Part shown: positions 1,725 to 18,384 of the stretch, in pieces | Position numbering within the stretch: the first letter of the stretch is position 1 | Layout of the letters: each line of letters begins with the position of its first letter | DNA from: a virus | Length of the DNA: 22,938 nucleotides | Virus record (IMG/VR): IMGVR_UViG_3300032241_000076 | Coordinates: 1-22,938 of that record | Direction: 5' to 3' (one strand) | The notes under the pieces: generated by a model | Databases searched by the model: none | What the model saw: the letters and a program-made list of their open reading frames with translations, nothing else | What the model was told of the DNA's origin: nothing | Translations under genes and position numbers: made by a program

Positions 1725-2051
1725 CTAATCTTTCTCGTGTGTTGCCACAACGTCTAAATCGTTAATCACTCGATACTCTTTACCATCTTTAGTTTCATTA
1801 CCCTTATAGATGAGTCCTGAGTATTTACCAAAGGTAATGAAGTCTCCAATCTTACACCATGGATCTTTTTGATCGGCATAAGCTGTTGTTCCCATCGCTA
1901 CCACTGTACCACGGATCTGGGCTAACTGCTCCCTATCCTTTTGTTGACCTACAGATATGATAATACCACTCTCGGATACTTCTTCTACTTCCTCAGGTAA
2001 TACTAACAATCTATGACCAACGGGATTTATCCCACTAGTATTTATTGTCAT
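1725..2051 (-). CDS. GroES-like co-chaperonin (Cpn10 fold)
   Basis: This 108-residue protein begins with 'GINPVGHRLLVLPEE', then 'SESGIIIS', 'RGTVVAMG', 'KIGDFITFGKYSG' and 'RVINDLDVVA'. These are the beta-barrel landmarks of Cpn10/GroES in the right order. The segment between 'ESGIIIS' and 'RGTV' corresponds to the mobile loop that contacts GroEL; here it reads 'VGQQKDREQLAQ'. Phage co-chaperonins such as T4 gp31 replace host GroES to fold the capsid protein. The position directly upstream of the scaffold gene suits that role. The gene overlaps the preceding small gene by 17 bp and has GGAG 6 nt before the ATG. A fold-level call is secure; the in vivo client is inferred. Confidence 0.85.
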   Translation of the reverse strand: MTINTSGINPVGHRLLVLPEEVEEVSESGIIISVGQQKDREQLAQIRGTVVAMGTTAYADQKDPWCKIGDFITFGKYSGLIYKGNETKDGKEYRVINDLDVVATHEKD

Positions 2052-6296: not shown

Positions 6297-6445
6297 TAGT
6301 AACCCTTTTTAGGTTCTTTCTTCTTATCGGCTTTAGCAGCTGGTTTAGATTTCGCTTTCGCTTTTGATGCTGGCTTCTTCTTGGAATCCATCATGTCTTT
6401 CTTCTTCTTCTTGTCTTCCATTTTGTCTTTCATCATTGTAGCCAT
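6296..6445 (-). CDS. Lys/Met/Ala-rich 49-residue basic protein overlapping terS
   Basis: This short ORF encodes a Met- and Lys-rich N-terminus, runs of KKKK, and an Ala-Lys-Pro repeat region resembling histone H1 tails ('KPASKAKAKSKPAAKADKKK'). The start has a strong ribosome site, GGAG 7 nt upstream. The first 101 bp lie inside the 3' end of terS in another frame, where terS encodes a Glu-rich tail. The stop overlaps the next start (TAATG). No family is recognised. A DNA-binding or condensing role is a guess from composition. The site, coupling and clean start make it likely to be translated. Confidence 0.55.
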   Translation of the reverse strand: MATMMKDKMEDKKKKKDMMDSKKKPASKAKAKSKPAAKADKKKEPKKGY

Positions 6446-7049
6446 CTTCTATCTCCTTAAAAGTTGTTGTGGGTATTGCTTCTACTTCCTTTGCACCTGC
6501 AAACTTCTCAAACTGCTCTGCAAGAAGACGAAGTCTATCATCTACTGCTAGCTTAGTTGTGATACTCGTTGGTTCACCGCGGATCAACTGTCTACGGTTA
6601 ACTAAATTGTTAAATAGGTTAGAAAGGATCTTAGTGTCTACAGGTTTACGAACAAACTTAGACTTTCTAACATCCCAAAGGTAATCACCGTTTTCTAGTC
6701 TCTCTTCTATGTGAGTAAGACTCTTGTCTAGAACTGAGCTGATTCTTGAACCTAGCTTCTCGTTCTGTTCAACGTATACCTTCTTTTGAATTTCATTCCA
6801 CCAAGGCTCTTCTTTCCATTCACGAAGAAACTTAGCTGGTACTTTAGTGAGTTTAGATACTTCGTCTATATCTCCATAGACGCAATAGAGTGTACAGGCA
6901 TCAATTTTGGTTTGCTGTGGAAACCAATTAGGATTGTGATGTGCTGCTTTAAGAGGTCGTCCTCTTCTAGGACTTGTGTTTATTTCTTTACCATCATAGA
7001 AATAATCACTTGACACTTCTTCAGTTTTCTGTTCTAAATCTTCGCTCAT
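6345..7049 (-). CDS. terS: terminase small subunit
   Basis: This 234-residue protein begins MSEDLEQ. A helix-turn-helix-like segment ('YCVYGDIDEVSKLTKVPAKF' and the following 'LREWKEEPWWNEI') covers about residues 50-85. A helical middle follows, then an acidic Glu-rich tail. Such HTH proteins bind pac/cos DNA and feed it to TerL, and the gene is near the start of the packaging module. An ATG 18 nt upstream exists in frame, but it overlaps a strong promoter's -10 region. I therefore place the start at 7049, where the predicted transcript begins exactly on the ATG. No Shine-Dalgarno sequence precedes it, so the message is probably leaderless. Its last 101 bp overlap a Lys-rich ORF. Confidence 0.75.
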   Translation of the reverse strand: MSEDLEQKTEEVSSDYFYDGKEINTSPRRGRPLKAAHHNPNWFPQQTKIDACTLYCVYGDIDEVSKLTKVPAKFLREWKEEPWWNEIQKKVYVEQNEKLGSRISSVLDKSLTHIEERLENGDYLWDVRKSKFVRKPVDTKILSNLFNNLVNRRQLIRGEPTSITTKLAVDDRLRLLAEQFEKFAGAKEVEAIPTTTFKEIEDGYNDERQNGRQEEEERHDGFQEEASIKSESEI

Positions 7050-7055
7050 AGTATA

Positions 7056-7084
7056 ATTATACCACAAGCTTTAAGAAATGTCAA
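7056..7084 (-). promoter_or_regulatory. sigma-70-type promoter for terS and the head module, leaderless layout
   Basis: Read on the minus strand: TTGACA (7084-7079), a 17-nt spacer ending in TGG, and TATAAT (7061-7056). Both boxes match the sigma-70 consensus in every position. Six bases separate the -10 from the ATG at 7049, so transcription should begin on or next to the start codon. Confidence 0.85.
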
Positions 7085-7101: not shown

Positions 7102-7173
7102 CTATTTGTTCATTACGTACATTGTAACTTCAAAACCAAATCTCATTTCAGTAGCTGCTGGTTTAGTCCACAT
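7102..7173 (-). CDS. pqqA: PqqA, pyrroloquinoline quinone precursor peptide
   Basis: A 23-residue ORF begins MWTKPAATEMRF and continues GFEVTMY, then four residues to the stop. This is the PqqA pattern: an N-terminal W-x-K-P, an arginine before the core, and E-V-T-x-Y, with the glutamate (residue 15) and tyrosine (residue 19) that PqqE cross-links and that become the PQQ skeleton. The usual length is 22-26 residues. The start has AAAGGAG 6 nt upstream, so translation is well supported. No pqqB-E genes are in the window, so any function would need the host pathway. A -10 box lies about 50 bp upstream. It is separated from terS by that gene's own promoter. A chance match is unlikely given the full-length similarity. 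Confidence 0.85.
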   Translation of the reverse strand: MWTKPAATEMRFGFEVTMYVMNK

Positions 7174-7220
7174 GTTAATCTCCTTTAAAAGTTAATGTAA
7201 AGTTTTCACTCTACCTTAAT

Positions 7221-7249
7221 ATTATACTCCAATGAATGAAAACAGTCTT
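7221..7249 (-). promoter_or_regulatory. probable promoter for pqqA
   Basis: On the minus strand a perfect TATAAT (7226-7221) is preceded at 17 nt by AAGACT (7249-7244), a weak -35. The predicted start, near 7214, leaves a leader of about 40 nt before the pqqA ATG, including its ribosome site. The weak -35 may indicate activator use or simply a weak promoter. Confidence 0.45.
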
Positions 7250-7316: not shown

Positions 7317-7406
7317 TATTAATTATTAATTATATTAATTATAATTATATTTATATATAATAATATAATATAATAATAATATAATAATATTAATATAATA
7401 ATAATA
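7317..7406. other. 90-bp A/T-only tract, candidate DNA unwinding element or replication origin
   Basis: Every base from 7317 to 7406 is A or T, made of irregular TAATA/TTAATTA repeats. It lies immediately downstream of a strong promoter in the divergent region between the two transcription arms. In T7 the primary origin is a promoter followed by an AT-rich stretch where transcription opens the duplex for priming. The arrangement here is analogous, but with a host-type promoter. It could also simply be an unstructured 5' leader of the RNA downstream. No iteron-like exact repeats are evident. Confidence 0.45.
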
Positions 7407-7410
7407 GTAA

Positions 7411-8322
7411 TCACGTAAAAGAGACCCATAGTGATGACTGAGGACGAAGTCCGAAGTCTAGTGATCCGCACTTAGTTAAGACGAGGACCATGATCAATAA
7501 GAGCCCCGTAAGGGTGTCCGTCGTTAAGTCCTACTAGGCTTAATTGTAAAAACTATTATAAATATAGGGAAGTGCATCCCACACAAACTCATGCATGTAA
7601 CATTGCTCCCCGTGGGGGCCCCTAGCTGACCCTCAATTAGTGTTAATATAATTAATCATTATCCATGGGGACGATGATTAATGGGTGTATGACACCATCC
7701 TAATCAATCAATAACTTACATCACACTAATTATAAGTATTACCCCTCATAAAACATACCTCTAATTCTAATTTTAAGACACTTTAAAAGCATTATCTTTT
7801 GTAACTGATATCAACCCATCAGCCCACTTCGTAGTGTTCGTTTAAACTCAATAGTTACCTTGTTGTGATACTTCAGATAAGACTACACTATCGTTAGTCT
7901 GATCTTTGATCACAACGAACTTAATGTATAAATTAATCCTCGGACATATAACTCTAACATAAGTAATTATTCAATCCTTATCCCTTTCTTTGTGTCGGAC
8001 ATAACCAAAAAGCGTCCGCCACGGTTTGCTGTATAACTTCTCAGGATTGCCTAATTACTAAGTTAGAGATAATATCTCAACGAGGAGTGCCGACCTCAAG
8101 GTCGTTAATTTATGTTATATATATATGAGTCAACCATGGATTGTATGGGATAATAGAACTATTAAGACTGCAAGGAATTGTTGCCTGTAACAAAAAGCAT
8201 TACAATAGCAATCATCGGCAATCAACAATACCTTTTGGGCTGAAGCCAGCCAAGAACTAAATAACCACAAATTCTTTACGCCAGACCCGCCCTGTTTATT
8301 TGCACGCGTTGCGTGCTTTTTT
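7411..8322 (+). ncRNA. large structured noncoding RNA, candidate GOLLD/ROOL-type
   Basis: About 910 nt without a credible gene, much less A/T-biased than its flanks and dense in perfect helices. Local examples: 7436-7458 (GGAC/GTCC nested in GAC/GUC); 7476-7527 with a GUAA-capped CCC/GGG stem at 7505-7514; 7605-7619; 7651-7682 (9 bp); 7684-7696; 7862-7869 with 7909-7916 enclosing 7880-7900; 7992-8022; 8062-8081; 8091-8104; 8177-8229; 8235-8253. Longer pairings include 7458-7462 with 7533-7537, and 7635-7643 with 7723-7731 closing a multi-stem junction. A possible terminal helix joins 7414-7419 (CGUAAA) to 8275-8280 (UUUACG). It ends in a strong intrinsic terminator and has an upstream promoter. 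Size, phage context and terminator suit GOLLD or ROOL RNAs, which form multimeric cages. Membership is not proven by reading alone; it may be a new class. Confidence 0.65.
8302..8322 (+). terminator. intrinsic terminator of the structured RNA
   Basis: A perfect 6-bp GC-rich stem GCACGC/GCGTGC with a GTT loop (8302-8316) is followed directly by six T residues (8317-8322). This is a classical rho-independent terminator on the plus strand. The minus strand has no matching T tract. Confidence 0.9.
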
Positions 8323-8349
8323 ATATGTGTAAACAATTTAATTTAGTTA

Positions 8350-8378
8350 TTGACTTCTTAATAGTTCTATTATAGTAT
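8350..8378 (+). promoter_or_regulatory. probable promoter of the right arm
   Basis: TTGACT (8350-8355), a 17-nt spacer, and TAGTAT (8373-8378); an overlapping TATAGT (8371-8376) gives 15-nt spacing. It lies just after the RNA terminator and before the first small gene at 8446. The structured RNA and the rightward genes therefore appear to be separate transcription units. Confidence 0.55.
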
Positions 8379-8445
8379 TAATCCAAGGGTAGGACTCATA
8401 TATATATAAACCCTTATATTCTAACAATCTTTTTAAGGAATCAAT

Positions 8446-8547
8446 ATGAAAAATGATAAAGTATTAATTATTATATTCACTGTTTTATTAGTTTATTTTA
8501 TTCACTGTTTTAATTATGCATTACATCATTCAACTTTATTAAATTAA
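8446..8547 (+). CDS. 33-residue single-span membrane peptide
   Basis: The ORF has a short Lys/Asp-containing N-terminus and then a hydrophobic segment, 'VLIIIFTVLLVYFIHCF' (residues 6-22), long enough for one membrane span. AGGA lies 6 nt upstream of the ATG. It is the first gene of the right arm, where phages often keep small host-takeover or lysis-regulating proteins. No family is recognised. AT-rich sequence readily makes hydrophobic ORFs, so certainty is moderate. Confidence 0.5.
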   Translation: MKNDKVLIIIFTVLLVYFIHCFNYALHHSTLLN

Positions 8548-8549
8548 TT

Positions 8550-8648
8550 ATGAATAATAAATATTTAATATTCAAAGCAATAAAAGAATTAATGAGATAT
8601 AATGTCTCGTTAGTAAGTGAAGTAAAAAGTAGTAAGTTTGTAGTTTAA
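8550..8648 (+). CDS. 32-residue hypothetical protein
   Basis: The ORF starts 2 bases after the preceding stop codon and has no clear ribosome site, so it would depend on coupled translation. The sequence is short and mildly basic (MNNKYLIFKAIKEL and onward), predicted helical. No family is recognised. It could be a chance ORF in AT-rich DNA; the tight spacing is the only positive evidence. Confidence 0.3.
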   Translation: MNNKYLIFKAIKELMRYNVSLVSEVKSSKFVV

Positions 8649-8675
8649 TTTTAATCATTTAAGGAGTAATCAATT

Positions 8676-10368: not shown

Positions 10369-11919
10369 ATGAAACCATATAGTATTAATGATTTCGCTCA
10401 TAAATTCTATATGTTCAATTGGTCTCATCCTGACATCAGGCAGACTTATTGGACTAAAGAAGACAATGAATGGGATCGAGAAGTAGGTGATGTAGTTAGA
10501 AAAACCTTTACACTTACAACGCTTTGGTATAAAGACGAGCGTGTTTTACAATTGTATACTAACGATCCTAACAATGGTAATCGTAAATTGAATGTATACA
10601 ATTACTTTCGTGATGCAGCATTTGCAACTGGTCTTACAACTTTCTCAAGTTATAAAACTACTGCAACTACTATCATCGACTCACTTTATAACATAGCCAA
10701 TCGTCCTAGCTATTACAATAAAAATGGCACACTTAAGAAAGGTTTCTTTGGTGCATTGCGTAGACGACTTCGTTCAAATACATTACGACCATCGTGGCTA
10801 ACTCAAGACATGCTTAACAAAGCTACAGAATTAAGCTGTCTTAACGATGATCTGTCTACTGAAGATTATCTAAACTTTCATGACATTCCGTCTTGGACTT
10901 ATTACAAAGATCCATTAACTAATGAATATTATGTTGACGGTTCTCAACGACGAGTTAGAATTGGCAATTTAAATTGGGTTCATATTCATCGTAGAACTAA
11001 TCCAAATGAATATGGTTATACATTTGATGAACGTAATGATATATGGCTTAGACCTATTCAGTTTTATCACAATGGTAATGTATATAATCGTGACGAAGTT
11101 AACATTGTAGAATGTTCACAATGTGGTCACGAAACTGTTGACGAACTATGTGTTGATGGTGTATGTCATAACTGTCTTGATGCATCGTTTAAGATTCATA
11201 ACTATTCAACTCGTGTTGAAAGTATGCTTAAATTCAAAGCTACACGCGTTAGACCTAATACAGTTTATTTAGGTTGTGAGCTTGAATACGAAACAAACAA
11301 TCGTAATCGTGCACAGTTAGGTGTTGGTAAGTTATTACATGGTCATGCACTTATGAAGTCTGACGGTTCTATTAAGAACGGCTTCGAGATTGTAACATGT
11401 CCTGCAACACTTGACATTCATCTTGATGTGTTTAAGAAGTTTTATGACAACATTCCACCTGATCTTAAGACAGAAAAGAATGTAGGTATGCATGTTCATA
11501 TCAGTCGTAAACCTTTATCTTACTTAACAATTGGTAAGTTAACTGAGTTCTTAAATCGTTTAGATAATAAACAATTCATACATTACATTGCAGGTCGCAT
11601 AGATAATTCCTATGCTCGTATGAATGATGAACGTACTGTTACATTTCCAATAAGAAATAAACATGGTGGTGACAGATACAATGCATTAAATCTCAACAAC
11701 GAAAACACTATCGAAGTTAGATTGTTTGCAACACCAATGAACTACAAAGAGTTTGCAATGCGACTACAGTTTGTTCAGGCTTTAGTTGACTATTGTAGCC
11801 CAGCTCAAAGTAGTTTGATGTTAAAGAAACAAACTCATTACGAAGCATTTATGGGTTGGTTATCTAGTAGAAGACGTATGTTCCCTGAACTTAGTTATCA
11901 TTTAAAGGAGTTTAATTAA
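10369..11919 (+). CDS. COOH-NH2 amidoligase (Amidoligase_2-like) with zinc ribbon
   Basis: This 516-residue protein has three parts. Residues 1-245 have no domain I recognise and are rich in aromatic and charged residues. At 249-269 a zinc ribbon is formed by C249-x2-C252 and C266-x2-C269. Residues 298-480 are an amidoligase of the glutamine synthetase/gamma-GCS-like fold: 'YLGCELEYE' (E304, E306), 'LMKSDGSI' (D332), 'GFEIVTCPA' (E340), 'GMHVHIS' (H375, H377) and 'TIEVRLFATP' (E449, R451). These are the metal- and ATP-binding positions of the family, which joins a carboxylate to an amine. The ribosome site is GGAG. It heads an operon with a glutaminase-type amidotransferase and an ATP-grasp ligase, so the three probably act in one pathway. 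The substrate is unknown. Confidence 0.85.
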   Translation: MKPYSINDFAHKFYMFNWSHPDIRQTYWTKEDNEWDREVGDVVRKTFTLTTLWYKDERVLQLYTNDPNNGNRKLNVYNYFRDAAFATGLTTFSSYKTTATTIIDSLYNIANRPSYYNKNGTLKKGFFGALRRRLRSNTLRPSWLTQDMLNKATELSCLNDDLSTEDYLNFHDIPSWTYYKDPLTNEYYVDGSQRRVRIGNLNWVHIHRRTNPNEYGYTFDERNDIWLRPIQFYHNGNVYNRDEVNIVECSQCGHETVDELCVDGVCHNCLDASFKIHNYSTRVESMLKFKATRVRPNTVYLGCELEYETNNRNRAQLGVGKLLHGHALMKSDGSIKNGFEIVTCPATLDIHLDVFKKFYDNIPPDLKTEKNVGMHVHISRKPLSYLTIGKLTEFLNRLDNKQFIHYIAGRIDNSYARMNDERTVTFPIRNKHGGDRYNALNLNNENTIEVRLFATPMNYKEFAMRLQFVQALVDYCSPAQSSLMLKKQTHYEAFMGWLSSRRRMFPELSYHLKEFN

Positions 11920-11920
11920 T

Positions 11921-12859
11921 ATGTGTATCGCAATTTATAAACCGGAAAGTAAAGTATTATCACAAGAGACACTCAAAGAGTGTTATGATTCTAACCCAGA
12001 TGGTGCAGGCTTTATGTATGCACAGGGTAAGAAGTTACATATTGAAAAGGGTTTCTTTAGCTATGATTCATTCTATCAAGCTTATAAAGAACATGAAAGT
12101 AAACAAGCAGTATTACATTTTAGGATTAAAACTCATGGTAAAATTGATACAACAAATTGTCATCCCTTTGCAGTTAATAGCTCAATTGGCTTTGTCCATA
12201 ACGGCATTATATCTGGTTTCGGTGATACTAATCATAGCGATACCATTGGATTTAACAATGCAATTCTTCAACCGCTTGTTAACAAGTGGGGTAACCTTGC
12301 TTTGTTCCAAGACCCAGTAATCAATCTTATCGAAGGTCGTATAGGTTATAGTAAGCTTGTCTTCCTTGACCGACATGGCAATCATAAGATTATGAACGAA
12401 GGTAAAGGTGTTTGGGATGATGGTGTTTGGTATAGTAACGATAGTTACAAACCATATGTTGCACCTGTATCTACATACAAACCTAAAGCTTATAGTTGGG
12501 ACAATACTGATTGGATTAATGATTACAGTAAAGGTTATAAACCTTCAAAGACTGTAGCACCAATCAAGCGTAAGTATGGCGTTATGGTTGGTGACATGGT
12601 TGAGTTACTTGAAGAAATTAAAGATGACTCTACTAACAAAGTATACGAAGCTGGTGAACTATTTGAAATCGTTGCAGTCAATAAAGATTTCACTGCTGAC
12701 TTAATGTATGAGAATGAGAAAGGTGATCCAGAGTTTATTTATAATATCCCTTATCATTCTCTTAACTTTGTAGATGACTTTGAAGATGATACACTTGACC
12801 CTGTAGGTGCACCTGAGTATCATAGCTTCTCTTCACCTTCATTACTCAAAGGATACTAA
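11921..12859 (+). CDS. class II glutamine amidotransferase
   Basis: The 312-residue protein starts MCIAIYKPE, giving Cys2, the N-terminal nucleophile of Ntn-type glutaminases after Met removal. Other family marks are 'HFRIKTHG' (R68, about 66-73), 'CHPF' (80-83), 'GFVHNGIISG' (90-99) and 'SDT' (106-108). This domain releases ammonia from glutamine for a partner synthetase. Residues about 219-270 look like a small beta-barrel ('GVMVGDMVELLEEI...AGELFEIVAV'), and an acidic tail follows. The gene starts one base after the amidoligase stop with GGAG inside that gene's end, so expression is coupled. No synthase domain is fused, so the ammonia acceptor must be another protein, most simply one of its two neighbours. 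Confidence 0.88.
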   Translation: MCIAIYKPESKVLSQETLKECYDSNPDGAGFMYAQGKKLHIEKGFFSYDSFYQAYKEHESKQAVLHFRIKTHGKIDTTNCHPFAVNSSIGFVHNGIISGFGDTNHSDTIGFNNAILQPLVNKWGNLALFQDPVINLIEGRIGYSKLVFLDRHGNHKIMNEGKGVWDDGVWYSNDSYKPYVAPVSTYKPKAYSWDNTDWINDYSKGYKPSKTVAPIKRKYGVMVGDMVELLEEIKDDSTNKVYEAGELFEIVAVNKDFTADLMYENEKGDPEFIYNIPYHSLNFVDDFEDDTLDPVGAPEYHSFSSPSLLKGY

Positions 12860-12860
12860 T

Positions 12861-13613
12861 ATGACTCTTAAACTATTTCCTTACAATCAATACAGTCTGT
12901 CTGCTAAACAATTAGCTAGACGACTTAAAGTATTAAGAGTAAGACCTACATACGATGCAAAGCGTCGTGATGTAATTGTTAATTGGGGTGCTTCGAAACC
13001 ACCTCAATTCAAGTCTATGCCACATGATCTTAATAAACATGTGGCTATAGCATTAGCATGTGATAAGCTTAAAACCTTTGAGACTCTGTCATTGCAAGGG
13101 TTCGAACAGATCCCGCAATATGTAACCAACAAACAAGATGCAGAGTCTCTTATTGAACAAGGTAATACATTATATTGTCGCACTAAACTTAATAGCCATA
13201 GTGGTAACGGTATTATTATTTGTAATGACATAAATGAATTACCTAACTGTTCATTGTATACTGTCAAAGCTAATCACAAACATGAGTATCGTGTTCATGT
13301 ATTCAAAGGGGAAATATTATATGTGCAACAAAAGAAAAAGGTTCTCGGTTCTAACATCCGTTCTACTGGGATTCGCAATCGGGGTAACGATTGGGTCTAT
13401 TGCAAACCTACTGATCACCCTAGCGAGCTACTACTATCATCGTGCGTTCGTGCCGTTCAATTACTCGGGCTTGATTTTGGGGCCGTTGATATTGGCCATC
13501 GCGTTAGAGACAATAGATTCTTCGTGTTCGAAATCAACACAGCACCAGGATTAATTGGAACAACGCTTGACAAATATGCTCAAGCAATTTATAATTACTA
13601 TAGGAGTCTATAA
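12861..13613 (+). CDS. ATP-grasp ligase (RimK/D-Ala ligase-like)
   Basis: The 250-residue protein has the ATP-grasp signatures: a Gly-rich loop 'SHSGNGIII' (about 112-120), 'HEYRVHVFKGEILYVQQKKK' (141-160), and the metal-binding end 'LDFGAVDIG' (D210) and 'FFVFEINTAPGL' (E224, N226). These enzymes form acylphosphates and ligate amines, as RimK does to protein C-termini. The ATG at 12861 has AAAGGA 6 nt upstream; an upstream in-frame extension into the previous gene lacks a ribosome site. It completes a cassette with the amidoligase and glutaminase. A perfect promoter sits inside its last 50 bp. The substrate cannot be read from sequence. Confidence 0.85.
   Translation: MTLKLFPYNQYSLSAKQLARRLKVLRVRPTYDAKRRDVIVNWGASKPPQFKSMPHDLNKHVAIALACDKLKTFETLSLQGFEQIPQYVTNKQDAESLIEQGNTLYCRTKLNSHSGNGIIICNDINELPNCSLYTVKANHKHEYRVHVFKGEILYVQQKKKVLGSNIRSTGIRNRGNDWVYCKPTDHPSELLLSSCVRAVQLLGLDFGAVDIGHRVRDNRFFVFEINTAPGLIGTTLDKYAQAIYNYYRSL
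13567..13595 (+). promoter_or_regulatory. consensus sigma-70 promoter for the replication module
   Basis: TTGACA (13567-13572), a 17-nt spacer, and TATAAT (13590-13595), both perfect. It lies inside the ATP-grasp coding end. A start near 13602 would place the next gene's GGAG almost at the 5' end of the message, giving a very short leader. Confidence 0.8.
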
Positions 13614-16369: not shown

Positions 16370-16521
16370 ATGAGTTTGATGAAGTACTTAAAGCTAGACC
16401 TGATTTGACTAGAGCAGATCTATATGATATAATAGATATTATGGACATCAATGATACATTAATTGATGCAGTCAATAAATTCTATCCACTCAATAAAGGA
16501 ACCGGAGATTGCGCAGCCTAA
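16366..16521 (+). CDS. 51-residue acidic protein with TTG start
   Basis: The frame starts at TTG (16366) with GGAG 8 nt upstream and encodes a helical acidic protein ('NEFDEVLKARPDLTRADLYD', 'INDTLIDAVNKFYP'). The ATG at 16370 is in another frame and stops after 12 codons, so TTG is the better start. It overlaps the previous gene by 4 bp and the polymerase gene by 13 bp. No family is recognised. Confidence 0.55.
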   Translation: MNEFDEVLKARPDLTRADLYDIIDIMDINDTLIDAVNKFYPLNKGTGDCAA

Positions 16522-17681
16522 TCTTAGATGTAGAAACAACCATTAGCAGTAAAGGTAATCCATTTGATGAAAGGAATAAACTCTGTTATGTTGGTCTCTA
16601 TAGCGATAGTCAGCATTACCTTTTTGATATTGATTATAGCGGAAGTCCTAACCGATCTGGACTTGACACTATACAAAAACTCATTGACAGCCACGATACT
16701 ATTGTTGGCTTTAACCTCAAATTTGACTTGCATTGGATAAGAAAATATGGAATCAATATTATGGGGAAGCGTGTTTGGGATTGTCAGTTGGCACATTTTA
16801 TTTACACTGGACAACAAACACCCTATCCCTCTTTGGATGGAGTTGCTGCTTACTATAACTTGGGTTCTAAGCTTGACGTTATTGCTAGTGAGTATTGGAA
16901 GAATGGTATAGACACACCTGAGATTCCAAAGGATCTTCTTGAAGAATATCTTATACAAGATTTGCGTTTAACGCAACAAGTGTATGATAAACAGATGGAA
17001 GAATTTGCGTCTGCTGCAAAACAGATGCAACGATTAATTAGTTTACATAACCAAGATTTATTGGTCTTAGAGGAGATGGAATACAATGGTATTATCTATG
17101 ATGAAGACGGATGTAATGAAGGAGCTAAAGATCTTTCTACTAGCATTGCGAGTATTGATAACGAGCTTTACTCGTATCATATGCTTCCTGAGTTTAATCC
17201 CAGCAGTACTGAGCACGTATCTACTCTCTTATATGGGGGCATTATTAAATACAGGCGTAAGGAAGTTGTCGGAGTATTTAAAACTGGAGCCCGTAAAGGT
17301 CAAGAGAAAGAACAATGGAAAGATTACGAACAAACGTTTGAAAGATTAGTTACACCACTTAAAGGATCTGAACTAGAGAAAGAAGGTTTTTACTCTATTG
17401 ATGATCAGACGTTAAAGAGTCTTAAGTTTAAAACTAACAAAGCTAAAGAACTTGTAGAACTTATATTAGCTAGGGCAATCTTAAGTAAACGATTGACTGC
17501 TTACTATGAAGGTTTACCTGAACTAAGAAGTAAAATGAACTGGCCGTTTGGAAAGTTACATGGGGTTCTTAATCAATGTGTTGCTAAGACTGGTAGGTTG
17601 TCATCAACCAAACCTAACTTACAAAACTTTGATGGAGAAATTAAACAACTATTTGGGAGTAGGTATGCTGTTACAAGCTGA
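16509..17681 (+). CDS. family A DNA polymerase, N-terminal part: 3'-5' exonuclease and thumb
   Basis: The 390-residue protein starts with TTG (AGGA 8 nt upstream). The proofreading exonuclease is complete: Exo I 'LILDVETT' (D7, E9), Exo II 'TIVGFNLKFDLHWI' (N69, D73), Exo III 'YLIQDLRLT' (Y147, D151). The thumb/palm entry 'GRLSSTKPNLQNFDGEIKQL' follows near the end. The ORF stops a few codons after 'FGSRY', exactly where motif A should begin. The rest of the enzyme is in the next, overlapping ORF in the +1 frame. Together the two make one T7-like polymerase; alone this part could only be an exonuclease. Confidence 0.88.
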   Translation: MRSLILDVETTISSKGNPFDERNKLCYVGLYSDSQHYLFDIDYSGSPNRSGLDTIQKLIDSHDTIVGFNLKFDLHWIRKYGINIMGKRVWDCQLAHFIYTGQQTPYPSLDGVAAYYNLGSKLDVIASEYWKNGIDTPEIPKDLLEEYLIQDLRLTQQVYDKQMEEFASAAKQMQRLISLHNQDLLVLEEMEYNGIIYDEDGCNEGAKDLSTSIASIDNELYSYHMLPEFNPSSTEHVSTLLYGGIIKYRRKEVVGVFKTGARKGQEKEQWKDYEQTFERLVTPLKGSELEKEGFYSIDDQTLKSLKFKTNKAKELVELILARAILSKRLTAYYEGLPELRSKMNWPFGKLHGVLNQCVAKTGRLSSTKPNLQNFDGEIKQLFGSRYAVTS

Positions 17682-18384
17682 CGCAAAAGCTTTAGAGTGG
17701 GTCTGTGCTACATACCTATCACAAGATCAAACTGCTTTAAAGGAGATATGGGATGGAACTGATCAGCATAGCGATAATCAACTTAGGTTTGGGCTTCCTT
17801 CTAGGATCATTGCTAAGACATTTGTTTTCAGACTCATCTACGGAGGTAGTGCTTACAGTTATGCTCATGACGTTAATTTTACTGGTGTATCTACATCTGA
17901 ATCTTTCTGGCAGAATGTTATAGATGAGTTCTATAGTAAGTATGAAGGTCTTGCTTATTGGCATAAAGAAGTTGTCGCTACGGCTATGCGAGACCGACAA
18001 CTCATCATGCCAACTGGTAGGATATATAAGTATGAGCCGGAAGTAAAGTACGGCAAAGTCAAGTGGCCTCGCACTAAGATTCTAAACTATCCAGTTCAGG
18101 GTCTTGGTGCTGACTTGATGGCAATAGCAAGAGTGTCTTTATCTAATAGGCTTAAAGATAAAGATGGAGTTAAACTAATTAATACTGTTCATGATTCAAT
18201 TATACTTGACTTTGATTCTAAAGTATGGGATAATAATAGTATAGTTAGTTTAGTTAATAAGTGTTTTACAGATGTTCCGACTAACTTTAAGAAGTTGTTT
18301 GGAGTAAACTTTAACCTTCCCATGAGGGTAGAATGTCAAGTAGGGCCTAATTGGGGTAACATGGAGATAGTGAATGTTAATTAA
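17665..18384 (+). CDS. family A DNA polymerase, C-terminal part: palm and fingers
   Basis: The 239-residue protein begins MLLQADAKALEW, which is motif A (D6, E11). The O-helix is 'RIIAKTFVFRLIYGGSA' (R47, K51, F55, Y59), so the position equal to E. coli Pol I 762 is Phe, and an Arg replaces the usual Gly after it. Motif C is 'INTVHDSIILD' (H176, D177). GGGAG lies 5 nt before the ATG, so independent translation is plausible. The 17-bp overlap with the exonuclease part, and the cut between 'SRY' and motif A, mean the two halves must reassemble, be joined by frameshifting, or reflect a sequencing indel. Confidence 0.88.
   Translation: MLLQADAKALEWVCATYLSQDQTALKEIWDGTDQHSDNQLRFGLPSRIIAKTFVFRLIYGGSAYSYAHDVNFTGVSTSESFWQNVIDEFYSKYEGLAYWHKEVVATAMRDRQLIMPTGRIYKYEPEVKYGKVKWPRTKILNYPVQGLGADLMAIARVSLSNRLKDKDGVKLINTVHDSIILDFDSKVWDNNSIVSLVNKCFTDVPTNFKKLFGVNFNLPMRVECQVGPNWGNMEIVNVN

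Follow-up and report, generated by a model that had tools for sequence, protein, structure and literature searches.

A stand-alone pqqA gene in a tailed phage contig, a candidate precursor-supply gene of methylophages

What use would a phage have for a gene whose product is only the precursor peptide of a bacterial cofactor? The question is raised by a short open reading frame (ORF) in IMG/VR virus record IMGVR_UViG_3300032241_000076, the complete 22,938 bases of which form the stretch analysed here (the window) and are probably a fragment of a phage genome. The pqqA coding sequence lies on the minus strand at 7102-7173 (MWTKPAATEMRFGFEVTMYVMNK; 23 codons, 72 bases, ATG to TAG). Its product, PqqA, is the precursor of pyrroloquinoline quinone (PQQ). 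We think it fairly probable that a tailed phage of Methylophilaceae uses this working pqqA as a stand-alone auxiliary metabolic gene for precursor supply.

Identity of the peptide and selection on it

The 23-residue peptide matches the Pfam PqqA family PF08042 over profile positions 1-19 of 19 (42.4 bits, E 6.4e-11; cut-off 21.1) and the NCBIfam family TIGR02107 (40.4 bits, E 1.8e-10; cut-off 20), and the PqqA motif was seen in none of 300 shuffled windows. These profile matches and shuffles exclude a chance origin of the ORF, which on sequence grounds is a full-length PqqA. The residue pair that PqqE would join, Glu15 and Tyr19 (E15-V-T-M-Y19), is intact, and the peptide equals a chromosomal PqqA of Methylophilaceae, a family of methylotrophs, in 23 of 23 residues. 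The initial annotation, made from the letters of the window, had recognized the ORF by what it called the full PqqA pattern, a W-x-K-P start and an E-V-T-x-Y core. The identification as PqqA holds, but W-x-K-P fails as a requirement: position 4 is T, S, A or P in close phage relatives and in many host copies, so that this element appears not to be essential for PqqA.

Selection was assessed mainly in a set of relatives chosen by their large terminase (TerL), with pqqA found by hidden Markov model (HMM; 18 sequences, 13 distinct). Among these the third position varies in 18 of the 23 codons, the first in 5 and the second in 3, and 13 of the 23 codons differ only synonymously. Pairwise amino-acid differences number 123, against 585 expected under random placement, and the ratio of nonsynonymous to synonymous polymorphism (pN/pS) in the clade is 0.09. 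Residues 11-23, including Glu15 and Tyr19, are invariant. The pattern indicates that phage pqqA is selected as a protein and is under strong purifying selection; a lack of such conservation, with synonymous change dominating, was what the initial annotation had named as grounds for refutation, and the gene withstood that check.

The phage, its relatives and its host

The window encodes TerL, an SU10-type portal, Cpn10, DnaB helicase, DNA polymerase A, an exonuclease, endonuclease I and part of a B12-dependent-type ribonucleotide reductase. Its helicase and amidoligase are 62% and 36% identical, respectively, to those of the cultured OM43 phages MEP401 and MEP402, both pqqA carriers, and its terminase is closest to that of the uncultured phage MW202796 (74%). 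It belongs to a tailed phage, by these similarities a cousin of MEP401 and MEP402, and a methylotroph of the Methylophilaceae is accordingly its very likely host. A methylotroph host, first offered as speculation, is thus borne out by this kinship and by the identity of the peptide with Methylophilaceae PqqA.

The gene heads a leftward packaging module and is divided from the rightward module by about 1.5 kb without convincing genes. Its phage-borne origin, as proposed at the outset, is upheld by the genes that share its contig (TerL, portal, DnaB helicase and DNA polymerase A) and by the same gene order in other contigs: eight of these (L124-L130 and L134, with terminases 84-99% identical) have pqqA at the same place, in the order pqqA - ORF6345 - TerL. 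An assembly artefact or host contamination, a concern with a metagenomic contig of 22,938 bases, was rejected on account of this recurrent order and of pqqA in cultured phage isolates, and we give it next to no credence. Other relatives have pqqA elsewhere, such as L164, where it is downstream in the structural region, and L157, where it is far upstream. Of the 14 relatives by TerL or amidoligase whose records reach 30 kb or more, 13 have a PqqA match over the cut-off, at several genome positions. Because so many long relatives carry it at differing loci, the gene appears to have been retained in the phage lineage although it moved.

Beyond this lineage, a degenerate DNA pattern located pqqA in at least 119 IMG/VR viral contigs, all of which have a PqqA-like ORF (23-25 residues) together with a sequence resembling a ribosome site; the peptide set so obtained is skewed to W-x-K-P and E-V-T-x-Y, forms lacking the Glu or Tyr being invisible to the pattern. 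The 119 pqqA copies with both flanks fall into 81 distinct neighbour-gene contexts, a crude count that includes short ORFs, and contigs grouped by shared proteins formed one giant cluster. By tblastn, nine genomes of cultured methylophages also carry pqqA (Venkman, P19250A, MEP301, MEP401, MEP402 and four Melnitz strains), so its function is testable in existing phage-host pairs; the search of related phages for short PqqA ORFs suggested in the initial annotation has yielded many carriers. Such pairs include Venkman or Melnitz on Methylophilales H5P1, a host for which one published medium is supplemented with PQQ (PMC9004378), and MEP401 or MEP402 on FZCC0133. When 12 kb of Venkman was compared with the uncultured phage MW202481 by megablast, the sole match was 85 bases, consisting of pqqA and the bases directly before it. 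A further candidate, 'Acinetobacter phage MD-2021a' (CAKLQF020000010.1, L338), was rejected as a pqqA phage, since its pqq operon stands beside a polyphosphate kinase gene and the record looks like bacterial chromosome.

The pqqA locus carries no annotated gene in Venkman, P19250A, MEP301 or MEP401, and in Melnitz-1 and MW202481 the strand opposite it is annotated with a hypothetical protein; the label pqqA is absent from every viral record examined. Phage PqqA also has no match in PHROGs. Annotation thus misses this 72-base gene, and the lack of a PHROGs match together with the two opposite-strand calls marks metabolic genes of fewer than about 30 codons as a blind spot of phage annotation.

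In agreement with the initial annotation, a Pfam scan of window ORFs turned up neither a second pqq gene nor a PQQ enzyme. Of 50 viral contigs with pqqA, many of them fragments, not one has a PQQ alcohol dehydrogenase or pqqE over the cut-off. Judged by gene content, pqqA stands alone and is not part of a phage-borne PQQ operon, and because these contigs lack the partners the phage gene would have to use host PqqB-E. The host family can supply PqqE, which scored over the cut-off in five of six host genomes, the exception being the 0.9 Mb OM43 assembly AG-390-L14, which is possibly incomplete; the reliance on host enzymes first proposed for this gene is thereby supported.

Host pqqA genes were sought with the pattern MRFGFEVTMYV in one genome per species (84,980 species). 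The matches listed belong to Methylophilaceae genera or to loosely named metagenome-assembled genomes (Betaproteobacteria, Nitrosomonadales, Pseudomonadota, proteobacterium); in this comparison with host alleles, which the initial annotation had proposed, the window peptide is unchanged in many of the genomes, and the closest host pqqA copies among the matches listed differ from the window gene at 6 of 72 bases. Each of the 120 host-family genomes searched has PqqA, in 1-12 copies. Methylophilaceae chromosomes, of which G085 and G146 are examples, have up to 12, and streamlined genomes of 1.2-1.3 Mb mostly have two or three. In the complete genome of LSUCC0665, pqqE lies at 765 kb with pqqD-like and pqqC-like genes alongside, and three pqqA copies lie away from it, at 52 and 875 kb. 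Since these copies are apart from pqqCDE, loose pqqA is normal in the host family and native to it, and the phage's pqqA resembles an additional copy of this sort. Placement of pqqA beside methanol dehydrogenase genes was not seen in a few host loci, inspected by eye only and with no family search of the neighbours.

Proposed function and competing explanations

In the known pathway, PqqE joins a Glu and a Tyr of PqqD-held PqqA, and a protease, PqqB and PqqC then finish PQQ (PMC10906245). During infection, extra PqqA would be made from the phage's own promoter and ribosome site; host PqqD would present it to host PqqE, which would join Glu15 to Tyr19, and the host protease, PqqB and PqqC would complete the cofactor. 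Loaded with PQQ, methanol dehydrogenase would keep methanol oxidation running through the infection, as a source of energy and of carbon for nucleotides. As PqqA alone among the components of the pathway is consumed one for one, a single 72-base gene could top up its flow without enzymes. From the sequences we infer expression during infection, processing by host PqqE and a gain in PQQ and in phage yield. The gene has several properties of an auxiliary metabolic gene, being located in a phage genome, homologous to a host metabolic gene and retained by selection. We also count in favour of precursor supply that two of the five pqqA copies of a Hyphomicrobium strain rise alongside PQQ production (PMC9851590).

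Several points weigh on the other side. The hosts already have several pqqA copies, and other steps besides pqqA may be limiting as well. Methanol dehydrogenase does not use up its PQQ quickly, so a short infection may need little of it anew. One relative of 41.9 kb has no PqqA match, even at E 10 with TIGR02107, and the circular MW202796 has none by tblastn, so pqqA is not essential. In Acetobacter, extra pqqAB raised PQQ by only 29%, against eightfold with pqqABCDE (PMC7936290), so that more precursor by itself may have little effect if the enzymes are limiting. The gain in PQQ may be modest, or may amount to maintenance while host transcription fails.

Maintenance can also be set against a boost as an explanation of its own, in which the phage copy replaces host pqqA mRNA lost in the takeover and the PQQ level stays constant by the same chemistry. 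The phage gene's own -10 box and ribosome site would suit that role, as would the several loose host copies, which suggest a high continuous demand; the evidence here fits a boost equally, and we regard pure maintenance as the less likely of these two but a serious candidate. Phage PqqA might instead be a decoy that competes for PqqD and PqqE, or be kept as a peptide ligand which slows PQQ formation in the host, or another radical SAM enzyme, and so diverts resources. The peptide does bind PqqD and PqqE directly (PMC10906245), and the phage has no other pqq gene; yet a decoy should have lost a reactive residue in some lineage, whereas the HMM-found relatives inspected keep both, and residues 11-23, Glu15 and Tyr19 among them, do not vary within the TerL clade and match the host substrate exactly. 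We consider a decoy improbable. Identity of the peptide with host copies is also what would be seen if a host pqqA had lately been picked up and were carried without function, but the 6 of 72 bases that separate it from the closest host copies among the matches listed, its retention at differing positions in 13 of 14 long relatives and above all the strong purifying selection across the clade, which largely contradicts neutrality, make such hitchhiking very improbable.

Precursor supply therefore remains the explanation we favour, and a wider proposal can be attached to it with slightly more doubt than belief: that stand-alone pqqA is a near-standard, repeatedly acquired methylophage gene, that separate lineages converge on providing just the peptide that the host pathway consumes, and that PqqA dosage is a control point for methanol oxidation once cells are infected. 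In oceans and lakes, Methylophilaceae (OM43, Methylopumilus, Methylophilus) are important methanol consumers. If it is true that their phages routinely carry pqqA, viruses act on the first step of methanol flux through a gene of 72 bases.

Cyanophage metabolic genes such as psbA are phage versions of host energy-pathway components that work with host machinery. The window phage likewise would supply part of a host energy pathway, but the part is the peptide substrate of a cofactor pathway. With chromosomal PqqA of Methylophilaceae the window gene shares the 23-residue peptide and the form of a single loose copy that has a ribosome site of its own, apart from pqqCDE (in one complete genome); it differs in lying in a phage, with packaging genes on one side and, on the other, the intergenic region that precedes the replication module. 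Phage pqqA was reported in 2020 in the T4-like methylophage population VP_266 of Lake Baikal (PMC7678222), also with a methylotroph host; there it accompanies a phage methanol dehydrogenase, whereas the window belongs to a smaller MEP401-like phage with no PQQ enzyme found in 23 kb. The pqqA genes of Venkman, P19250A, MEP301, MEP401, MEP402 and Melnitz encode the same peptide family (77-96% identical) in other phage lineages and at other genome positions. Phage pqqA is unmentioned in the main text of four papers on OM43 phages (PMC8163748, PMC8024684, PMC10580990, PMC9004378), one of which gives amidoligase and GATase as auxiliary genes of the MEP401/402 group, and not pqqA (PMC10580990); a 2026 reservoir study places viral pqqA among phosphorus-cycle genes (PMC13188868). 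The kind of gene is thus already known; how widely it occurs, that it stands alone and that cultured phages have it appear not to have been described in the open papers searched.

Expression signals and other features of the window

All signals near pqqA lie on the minus strand. A Shine-Dalgarno sequence, AAAGGAG (7180-7186), stands six bases before the ATG, and a likely -10 box, TATAAT (7221-7226), 47 bases before it; the leader between box and start codon (7174-7220) is the same in L126 and L128 from GTAGAGTGAAAAC onwards. TATAATA, AAGGA and the ATG are constant in seven close relatives, and many bases between and around them differ. The ribosome site called in the initial annotation is confirmed by this invariance, and a loose test found a Shine-Dalgarno-like site in all 134 phage pqqA copies. 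The -10 box called there is present and invariant, but it has no recognizable -35 and was not picked by a two-hexamer consensus promoter scan.

Between pqqA and the next gene is a sigma-70 promoter, TTGACA-17-TATAAT (7056-7084), which matches the consensus at 12 of 12 positions and is conserved in relatives. Because this perfect promoter intervenes, pqqA looks like a transcription unit of its own, and the next gene need not rely on the pqqA promoter; no terminator was found 3' of pqqA. The next gene (6345-7049, minus), part of the leftward packaging module and the pqqA neighbour in this phage lineage, encodes an unknown protein that starts MSEDLEQ. The promoter stops six bases short of its ATG (7049), so its transcript would begin at or beside the start codon, as a leaderless mRNA.

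The gene-poor region 7320-8670, about 1.3 kb, holds a very AT-rich stretch (7320-7410), a small hairpin near 7436-7458 (GACTGAGGACGAAGTCCGAAGTC) with a similar form in relatives, and perfect inverted repeats (8150-8167 with 8356-8373; 8115-8131 with 8393-8409). It is a possible replication origin or structured RNA; an Rfam search gave no credible match. Two overlapping plus-strand ORFs in different frames divide DNA polymerase A between them (16509-17681 and 17548-18384; profile positions 43-132 and 153-380). MEP401 and MW202796 likewise have a pair of separate genes listed as DNA polymerase, so this arrangement may be a family feature rather than a sequencing error. Three adjacent genes at 10369-13613 (plus) encode an Amidoligase_2 protein, a class II glutamine amidotransferase-like protein and a member of a PHROG named ribosomal protein S6 glutaminyl transferase, and look like a peptide or cell-wall modification cassette. 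The phage-encoded Cpn10 (GroES-like) co-chaperonin lies at 1725-2051 (minus).
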